40,445 bases of DNA from Sphingomonas sp. GTDB lineage: Bacteria > Pseudomonadota > Alphaproteobacteria > Sphingomonadales > Sphingomonadaceae. Position numbers and translations under genes: made by a program. The DNA lies in contig JANXUU010000033.1 of assembly GCA_025356055.1 (NCBI GenBank), forward strand, positions 1-40,445. Reading direction: 5' to 3'. This document shows, piece by piece, positions 14,091-21,026 of the stretch. Numbering within the stretch: position 1 is the first letter of the stretch; every line of letters starts with the position of its first letter. The notes under the pieces were generated by a model. It searched no databases. It worked only from the letters and a program-made list of their open reading frames with translations, and had not been told where the DNA came from.

Positions 14091-14839
14091 TGAAAAATCT
14101 GGCTCTGCTCCTTGCCGCCGGCGCGCTCGCCGCCACCGGTGCCTGCACCAAGAAATCCGGGGAAGCTCCGGCCGCCAATGTCACAAGCAGCGCGCCGACC
14201 GTCGCCGTCACTGCGCCGGCAAGCGGCGACTGGACCGAAGCCGTCGCCCCGACAGCGGCTGGTGGCTTCGTGATGGGCAACCCCGACGCCAAGGTAAAGC
14301 TGGTAGAATATGGATCGCTAACTTGCCCGCACTGCGCCGCGTTCGACAAGGAAGGCGTGCCGACCTTGCTCGCCAACTACGTCAAGTCGGGCAAGGTTAG
14401 TTGGGAATTCCGCAATTTCGTCCGCGATCCCTATGATCTCGCCGCCAGCCTCGTCGCGCGCTGCAACGGCGCGAAAGGCGTGTTCGGCCTGACCCGCGCG
14501 ATCTACGCTGCTCAGCCCGAATGGGTGGCCAAGCTGCAGGCGGTCCCGCCGGCGCAATCTGAAGCCACCTCGAAACTGCCGCCCGCACAGCAGTTTCCTG
14601 CTCTCGCCAGGCTCGCGGGCTTTCCGCAATTCGCGGCGATGCGCGGCGTGCCCGTGGCCAAGACGGACGCGTGTCTTGCCGATACCAAGGAAATCGACCG
14701 CCTCGTCCAGATGAACAGCGATGCCGTTTCGCAATATAACGTACCCGGGACGCCGACCTTCCTGATCAATGGCACCGTCGTTCCAGACACCGCGACGTGG
14801 GGACTGCTCGAGCCCAAGATCAAGGCGGCGCTAGGCTAG
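14087..14839 (+). CDS. DsbA-family thiol oxidoreductase, probable lipoprotein
   Basis: A 250-residue paralogue of the preceding protein. The N-terminus ends in ATGAC at residue 20, a reasonable lipobox, so it is probably membrane tethered rather than free in the periplasm; a Ser/Ala/Pro-rich linker follows. The fold has EYGSLTCPHCAAF (C80, C83) and PGTPTFLING with the cis-proline. The two proteins share landmarks throughout, which points to a tandem duplication followed by a change of anchoring. The ATG pair at 14087/14090 overlaps the previous stop, and smc starts 26 bases downstream. Confidence 0.86.
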   Translation: MMKNLALLLAAGALAATGACTKKSGEAPAANVTSSAPTVAVTAPASGDWTEAVAPTAAGGFVMGNPDAKVKLVEYGSLTCPHCAAFDKEGVPTLLANYVKSGKVSWEFRNFVRDPYDLAASLVARCNGAKGVFGLTRAIYAAQPEWVAKLQAVPPAQSEATSKLPPAQQFPALARLAGFPQFAAMRGVPVAKTDACLADTKEIDRLVQMNSDAVSQYNVPGTPTFLINGTVVPDTATWGLLEPKIKAALG

Positions 14840-14865
14840 AAACGAGCCTCGGGAGGCATGAAAGG

Positions 14866-17800
14866 GTGCGAATCAGGCGGTTAAAACTCAGCGGATTCAA
14901 GAGTTTTGTCGAGCCTACCGAACTGCGCATCGAGCCCGGCCTTACCGGGGTCGTCGGCCCCAACGGATGCGGCAAGTCGAACTTGCTTGAGGCAATCCGC
15001 TGGGTAATGGGTGAGGGCAGCGCGAAGAGCCTGCGCGGCGGCAGCATGGAAGACGTCATCTTCGCCGGCACCGCGAGCCGTCCGTCGCGTGACTTCGCTG
15101 AAGTCTCGTTGCTGCTCGACACGAGCGAGGGCGACAGCGAGATCACCCGTCGCATCGAGCGTGGCTCCGGTTCGGCATATCGCATCGATGGCCGCGATGT
15201 CCGGGCAAAGGACATTGCGTTGCTGTTCGCCGACGCCGCGACGGGTGCGCATTCCCCCGCGCTCGTGTCGCAGGGCAAGATCGGAGCGGTGATCGCCGCC
15301 AAACCCACCGAGCGCCGGATCATGCTCGAGGAAGCAGCGGGGATTTCGGGTCTCCACGTCCGTCGCAAGGACGCCGAGCAGAAGCTTCGCGCGACCGAAG
15401 CCAACCTTGCCCGGCTCGACGAGCTCCTCGCCGACCAAGAGGCGCGCGTCGGCCAGCTCCGGCGCCAAGCGCGCGCCGCCGAGCGTTATCGCGCGTCCAC
15501 CGGGAGGATCCGAATCGCGGAAGCTCGACTGATTTTCGCGCGTTGGGCTGCCGCCGACCACGCCGCGCAAGTTGCGGATGGCGAAGCGAAGGCGACAGCG
15601 GGCGAAGTGCAGTCGCTTCAGGAAGCGATGACCCGCGCGCAAATCGCGCAGGAGCATGGCGCCGCCGAAGTCTTGCGCCGCCGTACTGCTACGCAGGAAG
15701 CGCGCGACGACGCCCGGAACCTCACCCACGCGCTTGCCACGCTCCGCGCTCGCCGCGACACCGTTGTTCGCCGGCTTGCCGACCTTGAGCAACTCGCCAT
15801 TGCACTTGCCGCCGAAAACGCGAGAGAGCTGGCGCTTGGCGAAGATGCGGCAAGGGAAATCGCCGCTCTCGGAACCGAACGCGAGGCGATCGAGGCGCGA
15901 CTCGCCGACGGTGAAAGTGTCGCCGCTCGGATCGCCGCCGACCTGACGACCGCCGAAGCGACGTCGCGTGACGCCGACGCCGCGCTCGCCGGACTGGTTG
16001 GCACCGACGCGGCAATGCGCGCTGAACGCCGAGTCGCCGAGGCCTCGCTCGACGCCGCTACGGCGCAGTCAACCCGCGCGAAGACCCAGGCCGCGCGGCT
16101 TGCCAGTGAGCAGGCCGCACTCGGGAATGGAGAGGATCATCGCGCCGCACTTGCCTCAGCCGAGGTCCGCGCAGCCGCCGCCGCTATCGCCGCCTCGTCG
16201 GCCGAAACCGCGCTCGCGACTGCCGAGTGTGGCCGTACCGCCGCGGTAAAGCAGCGCGATTCCACCGAAACCGGCCTCGCTACCGCTCGCGCGGTGCTTG
16301 CCGCTGCCGAGGCCGAGCGATCCACGCTGGCTCGCGCGCTCGACCACGGCCGCACTGGCTCAGCGCTCGCGACTATCGCCGCCGACCCTGGCTTTGAGCG
16401 TGCACTCGCCGCCGCGCTCGGCGACGATCTTCGGGCCGACATCGGCGGCAACGGGGCGCGCCGCTGGGAAGGCAGCCAAAGCGGCGACGACCCTTCGCTC
16501 GCCCCCGGCGTCAGTCCCTTAACCGCTCACGTCCGCGCGCCGCCCGAACTGCACCGCCGCCTGGCCCAGATTGGAGTTGTCGAGGCCGACGGGGGCCAGC
16601 CGCTCGGCCTCGGCCAGCGCCTGGTCACTCGGGACGGGCGGGTCCGCCGCTGGGACGGCTTTGTCGTGACCGGCGGCGGGGCGGCAGAGGCTGATCGACT
16701 GGTCCGCGCCAACCGCCTCACCGCGCTAGAAGCTGAGTTGCCTGCGCTCAATGCCTTGGTCGACGCGGCCAGGTTTTCGCGCGACAGCGCCGCCATTGCG
16801 GTCGAAACCCACCGCGCCGCCGCCGAACGGGTCCGCGCCGCCGCCGCCTCTGCTGAGCGCGACGCCCGCGTCGCGGCGCGATCTGGCAATGCTGCCATTG
16901 CCGCGCTCGAGCGCCTCGAGGCCCAGAGAGTTGCTCTCGCCGAACACCGGCACAATCTTACCGTTCTGCTCACTGCGGCCTCCGCCGCCGTTTCCGCTGC
17001 CGATGCGATCCTCGCTGCACTTCGCGAAGCCGCCAGTCTCGGCACCAAAATCGACCTCGCCCGCGACGCCGCGACTCGCGCCGGCGAAGCGGTTGCCGAC
17101 AAGCGCGCCGAGGCATCCATGCGCGCCCGCGAGGCCGCTGCTGCCCAAGAGCGTCTCGCCACCGCCGCGCGTGAAGCCGGTGACTGGCACCGCCGCGCGT
17201 CCGCCGCCGAAACTCGCCTCGCCGAGGCCGCCGACCGAGCCCGCGCGTTTGTAGAAGAACAGGCCGGTCTTGCCCTGCAGCCCGATGCGCTCGCCGAGGA
17301 AATTGCCGCTCTCGAAGCCAAATCAACCGCCGTCGAGGCTTTGACGCTCAGCGCCGCTGCCGCCGATTGCGAAGCCGAAGAGGCGCTGGCCGCTATCGTC
17401 AAGGCGCTAAACCAGGCCGGCGAAGCCTTCGCCGACGCCCGAGAGCGCCGCGCTGGCGCCGACGCCCGCGCCGAAAACCAGGAACTCCGCCGCCGCGAAT
17501 ATGCTGCGATCAGTGGCGAAAAGTTCGAGTGTTCACCACCGCTGCTCCCCAAACGCCTTGGCTTCAACGCCGCTACTCTCGCCCATCCCGATGAGGAATC
17601 AACCGCGCTCGACCGCCTCTCCGCCGAACGCGCGCGCCTCGGTCCGGTCAATCTCGTCGCCGAGACCGAGCTCGCCGAAGTCGAATCCTCTCGTACTATC
17701 GCCGCCGCCGAGTGCGACGAGCTTCAGGAAGCAATCCATCGCCTGCGCGGCTCGATCGGCGGCCTCAATCGCGAAGGCCGCACTCGCCTGCTCGACGCCT

Positions 17801-18264
17801 TCGCCAAGGTCGATACTCATTTCCGCAGCCTGTTCCGAACCTTGTTCGACGGCGGGCAGGCGCATCTCGAACTGCTCGAAAGCGATGACCCGTTCGAAGC
17901 CGGGCTCGAGGTCATGGCGCAACCCCCGGGCAAGCGCCTCACCGCGCTGACCCTGCTTTCGGGCGGCGAGCAGGCGCTAACCGCCGTCGCACTGATCTTC
18001 GCTTTGTTTCTTACCAATCCAGCGCCCATCTGCGTGCTTGACGAAGTGGATGCCCCGCTCGACGACGCTAATGTCGAGCGCTTCTGCGACCTCCTCGACC
18101 GCATGACCGGCGAGACCGACACGCGATACCTCATCGTCACCCACAACGCGGTCACGATGAGCCGCATGCACCGGCTCTTTGGCGTTACGATGATCGAGAA
18201 GGGTATCAGCCGCCTCGTTTCGGTCGATCTTCACGCGGCCAAAACGCTGCTGGCCGCCGAATAA
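14866..18264 (+). CDS. smc: Chromosome segregation protein SMC
   Basis: SMC forms the ATPase arms of the condensin-like complex that compacts and separates chromosomes. The 1132-residue protein has the Walker A loop GPNGCGKSN (31-39), a head segment ending in LLEAIRWVMGEGSAKSLRGG, two long Ala/Glu/Arg-rich coiled coils separated by a hinge around residues 515-620 (DPGFERALAAALGDDLRADI marks its start), and the C-terminal signature LSGGEQALTAVAL with Walker B ICVLDEVDAPLDD. GTG 14866 with GGAGG upstream is the start. Its stop touches the stop of the convergent UdgX gene with no space between. Confidence 0.96.
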   Translation: MRIRRLKLSGFKSFVEPTELRIEPGLTGVVGPNGCGKSNLLEAIRWVMGEGSAKSLRGGSMEDVIFAGTASRPSRDFAEVSLLLDTSEGDSEITRRIERGSGSAYRIDGRDVRAKDIALLFADAATGAHSPALVSQGKIGAVIAAKPTERRIMLEEAAGISGLHVRRKDAEQKLRATEANLARLDELLADQEARVGQLRRQARAAERYRASTGRIRIAEARLIFARWAAADHAAQVADGEAKATAGEVQSLQEAMTRAQIAQEHGAAEVLRRRTATQEARDDARNLTHALATLRARRDTVVRRLADLEQLAIALAAENARELALGEDAAREIAALGTEREAIEARLADGESVAARIAADLTTAEATSRDADAALAGLVGTDAAMRAERRVAEASLDAATAQSTRAKTQAARLASEQAALGNGEDHRAALASAEVRAAAAAIAASSAETALATAECGRTAAVKQRDSTETGLATARAVLAAAEAERSTLARALDHGRTGSALATIAADPGFERALAAALGDDLRADIGGNGARRWEGSQSGDDPSLAPGVSPLTAHVRAPPELHRRLAQIGVVEADGGQPLGLGQRLVTRDGRVRRWDGFVVTGGGAAEADRLVRANRLTALEAELPALNALVDAARFSRDSAAIAVETHRAAAERVRAAAASAERDARVAARSGNAAIAALERLEAQRVALAEHRHNLTVLLTAASAAVSAADAILAALREAASLGTKIDLARDAATRAGEAVADKRAEASMRAREAAAAQERLATAAREAGDWHRRASAAETRLAEAADRARAFVEEQAGLALQPDALAEEIAALEAKSTAVEALTLSAAAADCEAEEALAAIVKALNQAGEAFADARERRAGADARAENQELRRREYAAISGEKFECSPPLLPKRLGFNAATLAHPDEESTALDRLSAERARLGPVNLVAETELAEVESSRTIAAAECDELQEAIHRLRGSIGGLNREGRTRLLDAFAKVDTHFRSLFRTLFDGGQAHLELLESDDPFEAGLEVMAQPPGKRLTALTLLSGGEQALTAVALIFALFLTNPAPICVLDEVDAPLDDANVERFCDLLDRMTGETDTRYLIVTHNAVTMSRMHRLFGVTMIEKGISRLVSVDLHAAKTLLAAE

Positions 18265-19668
18265 TTAGGTCAGTAACTCGACCCGCTCGCGGATCCGGGT
18301 CAGGTCTCGCACGAACAGCGCCCGTTCCTCGGCGCGTCGCTCCTGTTCGGGGATACGCAAAAGGAAGCTGGGATGGACCGTCACCCAGCACTCGCTCCCG
18401 TCGGCGAGCGTCAGCGGGGTGGTGCGCATTCGTGAGATCGTGAGCGTCTTGCCGGTCAGAGATCGCGCCGCGGTCGCTCCGAGCGCCACCGTCACGGCCG
18501 GTTGAATTAACCGACGTTCCTGCTCCTGCCACCAGCGGCAGGCGTCGATCTCGCCGGTATCGGGACGGGCGTGGATACGCTTCTTCCCGCGCAGGACGAA
18601 CTTGAAATGCTTGACCGCGTTGGTGACGTAGGTCGTTGAGCGGACGATTCCTGCCTCTTCCAGCGCGGTGTCGAATATTTGCCCTGCCGGCCCGACAAAT
18701 GGTCGCCCCGCCAAATCCTCCTGGTCCCCCGGCTGCTCACCGACGAAGATAATCCGCGCATTTAGCGGGCCTTCGCCGAACACGGTCTGGCTGGCGCATT
18801 GGTAAAGCTCGCAGCGCGTGCAATGCGCCGCTTCCTCGCGTAGCGCGGCCCAGCTTGCAGCGATATTCCTCGTCGGCTTTGGCATCGCCTCGCTCCGTTC
18901 GATCATCGCCGCCTCGCGTTTCTGTGCGCCCGCGATCAACCCCGCGATCAGCGCGGTCTCGGGCATGTTCTTCCAGTACTTCTTCGGCATTTCCTTGGTC
19001 ATTGCCTTGATTTTGACGCGCGCCGGATTGAAGATTGACGCGTAATAGGTTTTCCACGTCTCTTCGACCGGATCGCCTTGAGGAGTGCCGGCGCGCTCTG
19101 CACCTGGACTTTCGGAGAGCGTCTCCCCGTCCCAATGGATGCAAAGCGCGGGCGTCAGGATCGACCACCGCATTGTCGTGAACCGCCGCATGAAAAAGCC
19201 GGCGGTCTGGCGGACGATGTAATGATCGGGCTCAAACCACGCGATAAACCGGCTGTCACCGTCTTCCTCAATTTCGCGGAATCGGACGAAGGCGTGCATC
19301 TTGTGAACGTCACGTCGAACTTCTTTGGCGAGTCTTTCGATTCTATGGACCAGTGGATCGGCTCGATCCTCCAGCGCCTGCTTGTTTGACCGAAGCTTGA
19401 GCAGCAGCGCGTAGAGCAGCGAAAAGCGTTCCCGGTCGGTGTGACAGATGGCCGATTTGGCGAGGTCGACGAATGAACGTGGCACGGCAAAGCTTGGGCC
19501 GGGTGGGGGCGGGGGCGTGTCGCCGCCGAACAGGTCGGGCTCGCCACCCGCGACGGTCCACACCACCGCGTGCGCCGGAACGCCCGATTCAGCGAGCCCG
19601 CGCGCCGCGTCGCGCCACGCCTCGAAGTCATCTTCGGCGGGTAGCGTGATCCGCAGCGCATCGATCAT
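18265..19668 (-). CDS. DUF4130 - UdgX fusion, uracil-DNA binding/repair protein
   Basis: A 467-residue two-domain protein. Residues 1 to about 255 match the DUF4130/TIGR03915-type putative repair domain (DKMHAFVRFR-like core, AWFEPDHYIV, RRFTTMRWSILTP). Residues 270-467 are a family 4-like uracil-DNA glycosylase of the UdgX type: GEQPGDQEDLAGRPFVGPAG is motif A, HPSFLLR (432-438) motif B, and GKKRIH (361-366) is the UdgX R-loop whose His (H366) in known members bonds covalently to the abasic site, trapping the protein on uracil-containing DNA. C283, C286 and C377 are likely iron-sulfur ligands; H354 sits where family 4 enzymes have the third Cys. ATG 19668 follows GAGGG. Second gene of a pair, 32 bases after the radical-SAM partner. 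Confidence 0.9.
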   Translation of the reverse strand: MIDALRITLPAEDDFEAWRDAARGLAESGVPAHAVVWTVAGGEPDLFGGDTPPPPPGPSFAVPRSFVDLAKSAICHTDRERFSLLYALLLKLRSNKQALEDRADPLVHRIERLAKEVRRDVHKMHAFVRFREIEEDGDSRFIAWFEPDHYIVRQTAGFFMRRFTTMRWSILTPALCIHWDGETLSESPGAERAGTPQGDPVEETWKTYYASIFNPARVKIKAMTKEMPKKYWKNMPETALIAGLIAGAQKREAAMIERSEAMPKPTRNIAASWAALREEAAHCTRCELYQCASQTVFGEGPLNARIIFVGEQPGDQEDLAGRPFVGPAGQIFDTALEEAGIVRSTTYVTNAVKHFKFVLRGKKRIHARPDTGEIDACRWWQEQERRLIQPAVTVALGATAARSLTGKTLTISRMRTTPLTLADGSECWVTVHPSFLLRIPEQERRAEERALFVRDLTRIRERVELLT

Positions 19669-19700
19669 CGGGCCCTCACGAAGAATGGCGGATCAACCCC

Positions 19701-20945
19701 TTAAGCCGCAAACAGCTCCATCTGCTCCGCCTTGGGCGCGACCAGGGCCCTCAGATCGGCACGGTCGGTAAGCAGCGTGGGGCGCCAATCACCAGTGACG
19801 ATGAACGGTCGCATCTTGGCAATCGACACCGTTAGCCGCGCGACATCGTCGAGCATGATCGTCCGCCACCGCCGCGACTTGAGGATGCGCCCGACGGACT
19901 TAGTCCCGAGCCCCGGAACGCGCAGCAGCATCTCTCGAGGCGCGCGGTTGAGATCGACCGGAAAATTCTCGCGAAACTTGAGCGCCCAGGCGAGCTTGGG
20001 ATCGATGTCGAGCGGCAGCATCCCGTCCGCCCCGGTCGTCGACACCACTTCCTTGGGCGTAAAGCCATAAAAGCGCATCAACCAGTCGGACTGGTACAGC
20101 CGATGCTCGCGTATCAGCGGCGGGCGTTTGAGCGGGAGCACTGCGCTTGGGCTCGGGATCGGCGAAAAGGCGGAATAGTAAACCCGACGAAGCCCGAACC
20201 GATCGTAAAGCTGGCTCGCCCGCCCGACGATGTCACCGTCGTTCGCGGCGTCCGCGCCAATGATCATCTGCGTCGACTGGCCCGCCGGAGCGAATTTCGG
20301 TGCCGACTTGAAATGTTTCAGATTATCCTTCGCCTCGACGATCGACGCCTTCATTTCCGCCATTGCCCCCTCGATCTGGCTCTCGGACTTCTCAGGCGCG
20401 AGCCGCTCGAGCCCGGCGCGGGTCGGCAGTTCGACGTTGATCGAGACGCGGTCGGCATGGAGTCCAGCCAGCCGAACCAGCTCGGGGTCGGCGTCGGGGA
20501 TGGTCTTTAAGTGGATATAGCCGCGAAAATCATGATCCTCGCGAAGGCTTCGCGCCACCTCGACGAGCTGCTCCATCGTGTAATTTGACGAGGCAATGAT
20601 GCCCGACGACAGGAACAATCCCTCGATGTAATTTCGCTTGTAGAAAGCAATCGTCAGATTGACGACTTCCTGAGCCGTGAATCGGGCTCGGCGCACGTCT
20701 GAGCTTTTGCGATTGATGCAATAATGACAGTCGAAGATGCAGCTATTGGTCAGCAAAATCTTGAGCAGCGAAATGCATCGGCCGTCGGGCGCATAGGCGT
20801 GGCAGATACCCATCCCCTCGGTCGATCCGATGCCCTTACCGCCGCGGCTGTCTCGTTTCGACGTCCCCGAACTCGCACAGGACGCATCATATTTTGCCGC
20901 ATCGGCGAGGATCGCAAGTTTTTCGCGCGTGTCGAGCTGGGCCAT
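19701..20945 (-). CDS. Radical-SAM protein of the DNA modification/repair type (TIGR03916-like)
   Basis: A 414-residue radical-SAM protein. The 4Fe-4S/SAM motif is C69-x3-C73-x2-C76 inside TNSCIFDCHYCINRK; the start KLAILADAAKYDASCASSG is characteristic of the family that pairs with DUF4130 and UdgX proteins. The C-terminus holds a helix-hairpin-helix (LLRVPGLGTKSVGRIL), a non-specific DNA-binding element, which supports action on DNA. The reaction is not known for this family. ATG 20945 is immediately preceded by a LexA-type box, so the gene and its downstream UdgX partner are probably part of the SOS response. Confidence 0.88.
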   Translation of the reverse strand: MAQLDTREKLAILADAAKYDASCASSGTSKRDSRGGKGIGSTEGMGICHAYAPDGRCISLLKILLTNSCIFDCHYCINRKSSDVRRARFTAQEVVNLTIAFYKRNYIEGLFLSSGIIASSNYTMEQLVEVARSLREDHDFRGYIHLKTIPDADPELVRLAGLHADRVSINVELPTRAGLERLAPEKSESQIEGAMAEMKASIVEAKDNLKHFKSAPKFAPAGQSTQMIIGADAANDGDIVGRASQLYDRFGLRRVYYSAFSPIPSPSAVLPLKRPPLIREHRLYQSDWLMRFYGFTPKEVVSTTGADGMLPLDIDPKLAWALKFRENFPVDLNRAPREMLLRVPGLGTKSVGRILKSRRWRTIMLDDVARLTVSIAKMRPFIVTGDWRPTLLTDRADLRALVAPKAEQMELFAA

Positions 20946-20947
20946 GA

Positions 20948-20962
20948 GTTCACTCTATGTTC
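20948..20962 (-). promoter_or_regulatory. LexA (SOS) box of the alphaproteobacterial type
   Basis: GTTC ACTCTAT GTTC is an exact match to the direct repeat GTTC-N7-GTTC recognised by LexA in alphaproteobacteria (read on the plus strand; GAAC-N7-GAAC towards the gene). It ends two bases before the ATG of the radical-SAM gene. Repressor bound here would cover the start region. The match is seen directly; LexA control is inferred. Confidence 0.75.
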
Positions 20963-21026
20963 GCATGCACCATTTGTCCATAGTCGATCAAAATCAGGCA
21001 GTTGCGATCGGCGCCTCGATATCGGC

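Follow-up and report, generated by a model that had tools for sequence, protein, structure and literature searches.

A radical-SAM and DUF4130-UdgX operon of Sphingomonas with a conserved LexA-type box and a candidate clamp-binding tail

Organisation of the operon

A stretch of 40,445 nt from the Sphingomonas sp. contig JANXUU010000033.1, referred to here as the window, encodes a radical S-adenosylmethionine (radical-SAM) protein and, 32 bp downstream on the same minus strand, a protein in which a DUF4130 part is fused to a UdgX domain (Table 1). A direct repeat of the LexA type precedes the radical-SAM gene, and the two genes are presumably co-transcribed. The repeat, the DUF4130 partner and a C-terminal peptide of the radical-SAM protein are conserved in a large number of relatives. 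SOS control of the operon is very likely from this comparison, and we lean towards a LexA-repressed system in which the radical-SAM protein, with DUF4130 as its partner, would process lesions while tethered to the replication clamp.

The original prediction for this locus, made from the letters of the window, had placed a GTTC-N7-GTTC repeat two bases before the radical-SAM start codon. Both its coordinates and its exact fit to the LexA repeat are confirmed. The plus strand at 20948-20962 reads GTTCACTCTATGTTC (GTTC-ACTCTAT-GTTC) and is separated from the ATG by positions 20946-20947. The CxxxCxxC motif and the C-terminal helix-hairpin-helix claimed for the radical-SAM protein have been located as C69-x3-C73-x2-C76 and as a helix-hairpin-helix-like segment, LLRVPGLGTKSVGRIL, and the KRIH loop of UdgX claimed for the partner as KKRIH with H366, in a domain that scores over the TIGR03914 cut-off.

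The operon matches three NCBIfam models, TIGR03916, TIGR03915 and TIGR03914, over their cut-offs; the names of these models are already linked to one another, and the window is an ordinary member of the group. The DUF4130 part is also recognised by the Pfam model DUF4130 (140 bits, cut-off 27). Motif A of the UdgX domain, GEQPG, starts at residue 310 of the fusion protein, KRIH of the R-loop at residue 363 and motif B, HPSFLLR, at residue 432. A motif A with Gln, an R-loop His and a motif B with HPS are the features by which UdgX is defined in the available text of PMC10359453.

Table 1. Features of the operon and their positions in the window
Feature	Position	Strand	Evidence
LexA-type direct repeat GAAC-ATAGAGT-GAAC (gene strand), GAACATAGAGTGAAC	20948..20962	-	sequence and conservation
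Predicted -35 element, TGGACA	20975..20980	-	17 nt before the -10 element
Predicted -10 element, TAGAGT, within the LexA-type box	20952..20957	-	TATAAT-like in relatives
ATG start codon, predicted transcription start (leaderless mRNA)	20943..20945	-	suggested by the -10 spacing
Radical-SAM protein, 414 aa, TIGR03916 rSAM_link_UDG	19701..20945	-	566.1 bits, cut-off 343.5
CxxxCxxC (C69, C73, C76), radical-SAM cluster ligands	20718..20741	-	invariant in 175/175 aligned proteins
Codon of extra invariant Cys C23	20877..20879	-	175/175
Codon of extra invariant Cys C48	20802..20804	-	175/175
Codon of extra invariant Cys C57	20775..20777	-	175/175
Helix-hairpin-helix-like segment, residues 327-358	19872..19967	-	sequence; weak phmmer match; structure model
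C-terminal QMELF, residues 408-412, candidate beta-clamp-binding motif	19710..19724	-	published definition if Met is taken as aliphatic
DUF4130-UdgX fusion protein, 467 aa	18265..19668	-	family models over cut-off
DUF4130 part, TIGR03915	18955..19638	-	213 bits, cut-off 112.25
UdgX domain, TIGR03914	18295..18951	-	308 bits, cut-off 189.95; model resembles solved UdgX, Z about 30
KRIH of the R-loop, including cross-linking histidine H366	18571..18582	-	alignment to the UdgX R-loop

The DUF4130 partner and its UdgX domain

The 80 closest relatives were kept from a search of genome contigs, and further copies were taken from genome draws at the level of the class and of the phylum. The class draw comprises 289 genomes, 18 of which, the genome of the window included, encode a TIGR03916 radical-SAM protein over the cut-off. 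DUF4130 is likewise found in 18 of the 289, and 17 genomes are common to both; one of the two exceptions is a copy at a contig end and the other a truncated radical-SAM gene. Six loci with room downstream (L066, L067, L070, L104, L199 and L202) have no DUF4130 in the stretch examined, and all six genomes encode it. It lies about 3 kb downstream of the radical-SAM gene, on the same strand and beyond the stretch examined, in G496 and G508.

The UdgX domain is distributed differently. It is found over the cut-off in 24 of the 289 genomes, and the 18 with a radical-SAM protein have it fused to the partner in ten cases, elsewhere in two and not over the cut-off in six, one of the six being a copy at a contig end (G045). 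The complete partner proteins, 154 in number, comprise 125 long DUF4130-UdgX fusions, 28 short proteins and one of intermediate length. Two short ones were excluded, since in L085 the match to uracil-DNA glycosylase (UDG) lies beyond a broken frame and L129 stands beside a truncated radical-SAM gene. The UDG domain is absent from 26 of the remaining 152, each beside an intact radical-SAM gene. The 70 partners from close relatives contribute none of these, the 53 from the wider alphaproteobacterial set contribute 8 and the 29 from outside the class contribute 18. These domain and genome counts point to a core made up of the radical-SAM and DUF4130 proteins, with UdgX as an addition, and lead us to reject UdgX as the core partner. 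The view of the locus as a damage-induced radical-SAM/UdgX pair is therefore retained as to a functional pair, which the 17 shared genomes support, and given up as to UdgX as its defining member.

It could still be that the operon serves to trap uracil in DNA during the SOS response and that the radical-SAM and DUF4130 proteins assist UdgX, for instance by releasing or modifying the cross-link. The UdgX of Mycobacterium smegmatis excises uracil and then links itself to the site, according to the available text of PMC10359453, in which the precise role of UdgX is called largely unknown. The window domain resembles it in its motif A Gln, R-loop His and motif B, shares 46-49% sequence identity over its length with most solved UdgX chains at a Z of about 30, and differs in being fused behind DUF4130, in lying next to a radical-SAM gene and in having KKRIH in place of KRRIH. 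The structure matches listed for the model of the fusion protein are UDG structures. The cross-linking His is retained in 123 of the 125 full-length partners, which makes it plausible that partners with the domain trap themselves on uracil-DNA, and no intact partner lacking UdgX was seen among the 80 closest relatives. The 26 partners devoid of a UDG domain and the six radical-SAM genomes without UdgX over the cut-off speak against such a UdgX-centred operon, and we regard it as unlikely.

The available text of PMC3765255 describes DUF4130 as a predicted mutagenesis-related enzyme associated with radical-SAM proteins and UDGs. At least 7 of 45 alphaproteobacterial UdgX domains have no Cys at the columns of the Fe-S cysteines and retain the cross-linking histidine. 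Among the 98 radical-SAM loci L031 to L128, 16 have a gene for a hemerythrin-like protein located between the pair (L032, L038, L042, L044, L045, L046, L052, L058, L061, L089, L092, L093, L100, L107, L110 and L117); the window has none. The Pfam model Hemerythrin is matched over the cut-off by the L093 copy, the sole copy scanned. This domain might shield an oxygen-sensitive enzyme.

The radical-SAM protein and its C-terminal tail

NCBIfam and Pfam scans of the radical-SAM protein returned only TIGR03916, Radical_SAM and Fer4_12, and the TIGR03916 family is found over the cut-off in 84 of the 398 Pseudomonadota genomes drawn. All 175 aligned proteins share six invariant cysteines, comprising the cluster ligands C69, C73 and C76 and three further residues, C23, C48 and C57; it is a fair guess from this conservation that the latter form a second metal site. 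The helix-hairpin-helix-like segment has a weak phmmer match to a ComEA-related chain (E-value 0.49), and the block is modelled with a predicted local distance difference test score of 89-96. No reaction of the TIGR03916 family was found described in a literature search that covered few subscription papers. SplB, the spore photoproduct lyase, is also a radical-SAM protein with links to DNA repair and to SOS. No SplB family is among the NCBIfam and Pfam matches of the window protein up to an E-value of 0.001, a result that involves no direct comparison with SplB.

The protein ends in QMELF-AA. Clamp-binding peptides are defined in the available text of PMC11139829 as Q-phi-x-[LM]-[FL] or Q-phi-x-[LM]-x-[FL], where phi is aliphatic. 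Complete C-termini number 173, and with Met counted as aliphatic this definition fits 145 of them, comprising 79 from the 80 close relatives, 54 from 64 other alphaproteobacterial proteins and 12 from 29 non-alphaproteobacterial ones. On the same reading it fits none of 3298 internal windows of 20 residues, and it has matches in 8 of 648 other long open reading frames (ORFs), one of the eight being the window's own radical-SAM protein. A looser pattern, written after the tails had been viewed, fits all 173 tails; it also matches 23 of the 3298 internal windows and, among 17300 tails that were shuffled, 1017. The conserved tail may bind the replication clamp. No paper linking a radical-SAM protein with a clamp-binding motif was found in a partial search, mostly of titles and the beginnings of abstracts. 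The ImuB parallel QLPLWG has no occurrence in the main text of PMC10421592 and is not used here.

The same peptide could instead serve as a degradation tag or as a tail binding some other partner. The motif is followed by two residues in 51 of 80 sphingomonad tails, as in QMELFAA of the window, and a C-terminal AA can be read by ClpXP. However, 49 of the 64 proteins from other Alphaproteobacteria and 17 of the 29 non-alphaproteobacterial ones stop directly after the motif, for which a degron that ends in AA offers no explanation; we consider either of these functions rather improbable.

It is also conceivable that the substrate is RNA or a small metabolite, as it is for the nearest structural matches of the enzyme. 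Foldseek retrieves radical-SAM barrels, the top matches being biotin synthase, lipoyl synthase, viperin and MiaB, and only the first has an E-value below 0.001. The three extra N-terminal cysteines resemble those of lipoyl synthase and of MiaB, two enzymes that employ a second cluster. The structural matches may, on the other hand, reflect nothing beyond the common barrel, and DNA is indicated by the helix-hairpin-helix, by the clamp-like tail, by the SOS control and by the frequent fusion of the partner to a UDG. We regard this alternative as unlikely, and DNA is the substrate that we would favour.

Relatives of the radical-SAM gene have also been identified in 158 of 72,556 plasmid records, 58 of them from Phaeobacter and 142 predicted to be non-mobilizable. 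A record labelled Acinetobacter phage MD-2021a (L270, CAKLQH020000003.1, 89422-96555) encodes a radical-SAM protein together with a DNA metabolism protein, next to glyS and glyQ; it has the appearance of a bacterial contig deposited under a phage label.

The LexA-type box and the proposed mechanism

Considered on its own, the exact box in the window is at chance level, with at least one site in 72 of 100 shuffles (mean 1.37). Across the whole genome the box has 66 exact matches and a reversed control pattern has 49, and most of the 66 do not precede any gene recognised as belonging to the SOS response. The significance of the box comes from its conservation. GAAC-N7-GAAC occurs exactly, near the gene start, in 79 of the 80 closest relatives, and the box is present in 17 of the 18 class-draw genomes with a radical-SAM protein. 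The repeat is found in 64 of 65 further alphaproteobacterial copies, as GAAC-N7-GAAC in 50 and as GTTC-N7-GTTC on the gene strand in 14. The 29 copies from other Pseudomonadota have neither form in the scanned region. CTGT-N8-ACAG, the E. coli type of LexA site, is found in 19 of them and a one-mismatch form, ACTGT...CCAGT, in five more. Either motif has a background of about 0.01 per window of 360 nt; of the 23 matches of CTGT-N8-ACAG, 4 fall beyond the scanned region, over a total of 134,292 bases. The scan of the 65 and 29 copies left out the window's own copy (L113) and short radical-SAM matches, among them L218 and L129, which belong to one genome with a truncated gene. The 80-copy and 65-copy sets are related and may share species, and their counts are not independent events.

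A change of operator sequence between lineages, with a LexA-type site kept in place, is hard to explain without SOS control, and the SOS-type control originally proposed is well supported by it. That the repeat is instead a chance motif, one site being expected in the window, or a ribosome-binding site, an AGGA, GGAG, GAGG or AAGG word being present in 15 of the 65 boxes with the ATG at +17, is very improbable, as the repeat is kept in 79 of 80 and 64 of 65 copies while its spacer bases vary and another LexA-type motif takes the same place elsewhere; conservation rules out the chance motif, though shuffles of the window could not reject it.

A recognised site is missing from 6 of the 94 scanned copies, L112 of the 65 and L141 and L168-L171 of the 29. 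TTAG-N6-TACTA is also a LexA site. A LexA profile search of 15 genomes gave a match over the cut-off in all nine with a site and in three of the six without one (G566, G368 and G650), and not in G198, G351 and G618, the last being just under. In G566, G368 and G650 another palindrome precedes lexA, and the motif scan did not find it before the radical-SAM gene. A blastn search for distant forms of the promoter region in plasmids found no place covering 80% of the query.

The genome of the window encodes a LexA over the cut-off (165.2 bits, cut-off 110.95), and an exact site lies just upstream of lexA. Exact sites also precede recA (over its cut-off), a partial ORF cut by the end of its stretch whose best match is UvrA, and an ImuA/ImuB-like pair, in which the ImuA model scores 33.2 bits, under its cut-off of 150, and the Pfam model IMS scores over the cut-off. 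The DinB model NF002677 has no match in this genome. A further exact GTTC-N7-GTTC (L012:1501-1515) lies about 245 nt upstream of an ORF resembling what we take to be mraZ.

Among the 79 sphingomonad relatives with the box, a TTGACA-like hexamer (at least 4 of 6 bases) stands at -18 to -13 relative to the box in 56; no other offset between -45 and -1 has one in more than 12. At +5 to +10 there is a TATAAT-like hexamer (at least 4 of 6) in 64. Both occur together, 17 nt apart, in 42. The ATG follows the box by exactly 2 nt in 65 of 80, the window counted among them, which places it 7 nt after the -10 element. The sphingomonad operator is thus predicted to enclose the -10 box, where LexA would cover it, and an ATG at this distance would be the first codon of a leaderless mRNA.

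In outline, SOS regulation of the operon is already in print and not new, a point that the original prediction does not mention. The available text of PMC8565304 places a two-gene UDG operon of Bacteroidetes, COG1573-COG4277, under SOS control, mentions earlier reports of such a system in Verrucomicrobia and Alphaproteobacteria, gives GTTC-N7-GTTC as the alphaproteobacterial LexA motif, terms the system base-excision repair and lists SplB (COG1533) apart from it; that text has nothing on a constant DUF4130 partner, a clamp motif, extra cysteines or an overlap with the promoter. Like the operon of the window, the system combines a UDG-type protein with a companion in two genes under LexA, and Alphaproteobacteria are named. 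The COG4277 member we take to be the TIGR03916-type radical-SAM protein with the helix-hairpin-helix, and a 2008 Caulobacter paper and a 2016 Verrucomicrobia paper are cited in PMC8565304 for the earlier reports. The words uracil, radical SAM and glycosylase are absent from the main texts of PMC12700426 (Caulobacter, 2025) and PMC9578287. The clamp-like tail, the six invariant cysteines, the operator enclosing a -10 box with its predicted leaderless start and the intergenic hemerythrin were not found described in the literature searched.

We propose that the operon is repressed by LexA and induced by DNA damage. Cleavage of LexA would free the promoter, whose -10 element lies inside the operator, and the mRNA would probably start at the ATG. 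The radical-SAM protein would hold DNA through its helix-hairpin-helix and the beta clamp through its C-terminal Q-phi-x-L-F peptide, a tether that would place it at or behind stalled forks. Its 5'-deoxyadenosyl radical chemistry would attack a damaged base, perhaps with help from a second metal site formed by C23, C48 and C57, with DUF4130 as the constant partner in this step; UdgX, where present, would cap uracil or abasic sites left on the way. LexA-repressed, clamp-tethered processing of lesions by the radical-SAM protein, with DUF4130 as partner, is the reading that we moderately favour. A fuller version is put forward tentatively: the damage-induced, clamp-tethered radical-SAM enzyme, with DUF4130 as its constant partner and a second metal site on the three extra cysteines, would use radical chemistry to repair or modify a base lesion at the fork, and would amount to a clamp-bound DNA repair system with a new reaction.

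A number of observations weigh against this proposal. If Met is not taken as aliphatic, 126 of the 173 tails fit the clamp-binding definition and 47 fail, the window's own QMELF among them. Even with Met, 28 of 173 tails fail, 17 of them among the 29 from outside the Alphaproteobacteria, where QMALW, QMVLW, QMGLW, QGSLF, QGALF and QLSLI occur and QLGFGF is also among the near forms; in the available text of PMC11139829 a Trp at the last position weakened clamp binding in one peptide. The motif had been noticed by eye in the same sequences in which it was later counted. The structure model of the radical-SAM protein has intermediate confidence overall and is poor in the region of the extra cysteines, and the wider alphaproteobacterial set shows no fixed -35 offset of the kind found in the sphingomonads. 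L169-L171, from non-alphaproteobacterial genomes with a LexA over the cut-off, show none of the LexA motifs tried.

The radical-SAM family is a common one and apparently subject to SOS control in lineages whose LexA-type sites differ. The conserved clamp-like tail is the most useful new lead, as its binding to the clamp, if real, would make the place of action directly testable and narrow the search for a substrate to lesions met at forks. The DUF4130 proteins devoid of UdgX would provide a natural minimal system for study.

At its downstream end the operon faces an SMC gene on the plus strand (14797-18264), convergent with the gene of the fusion protein. The stop codons of the two genes touch (18262-18267), leaving no space for a terminator between them.

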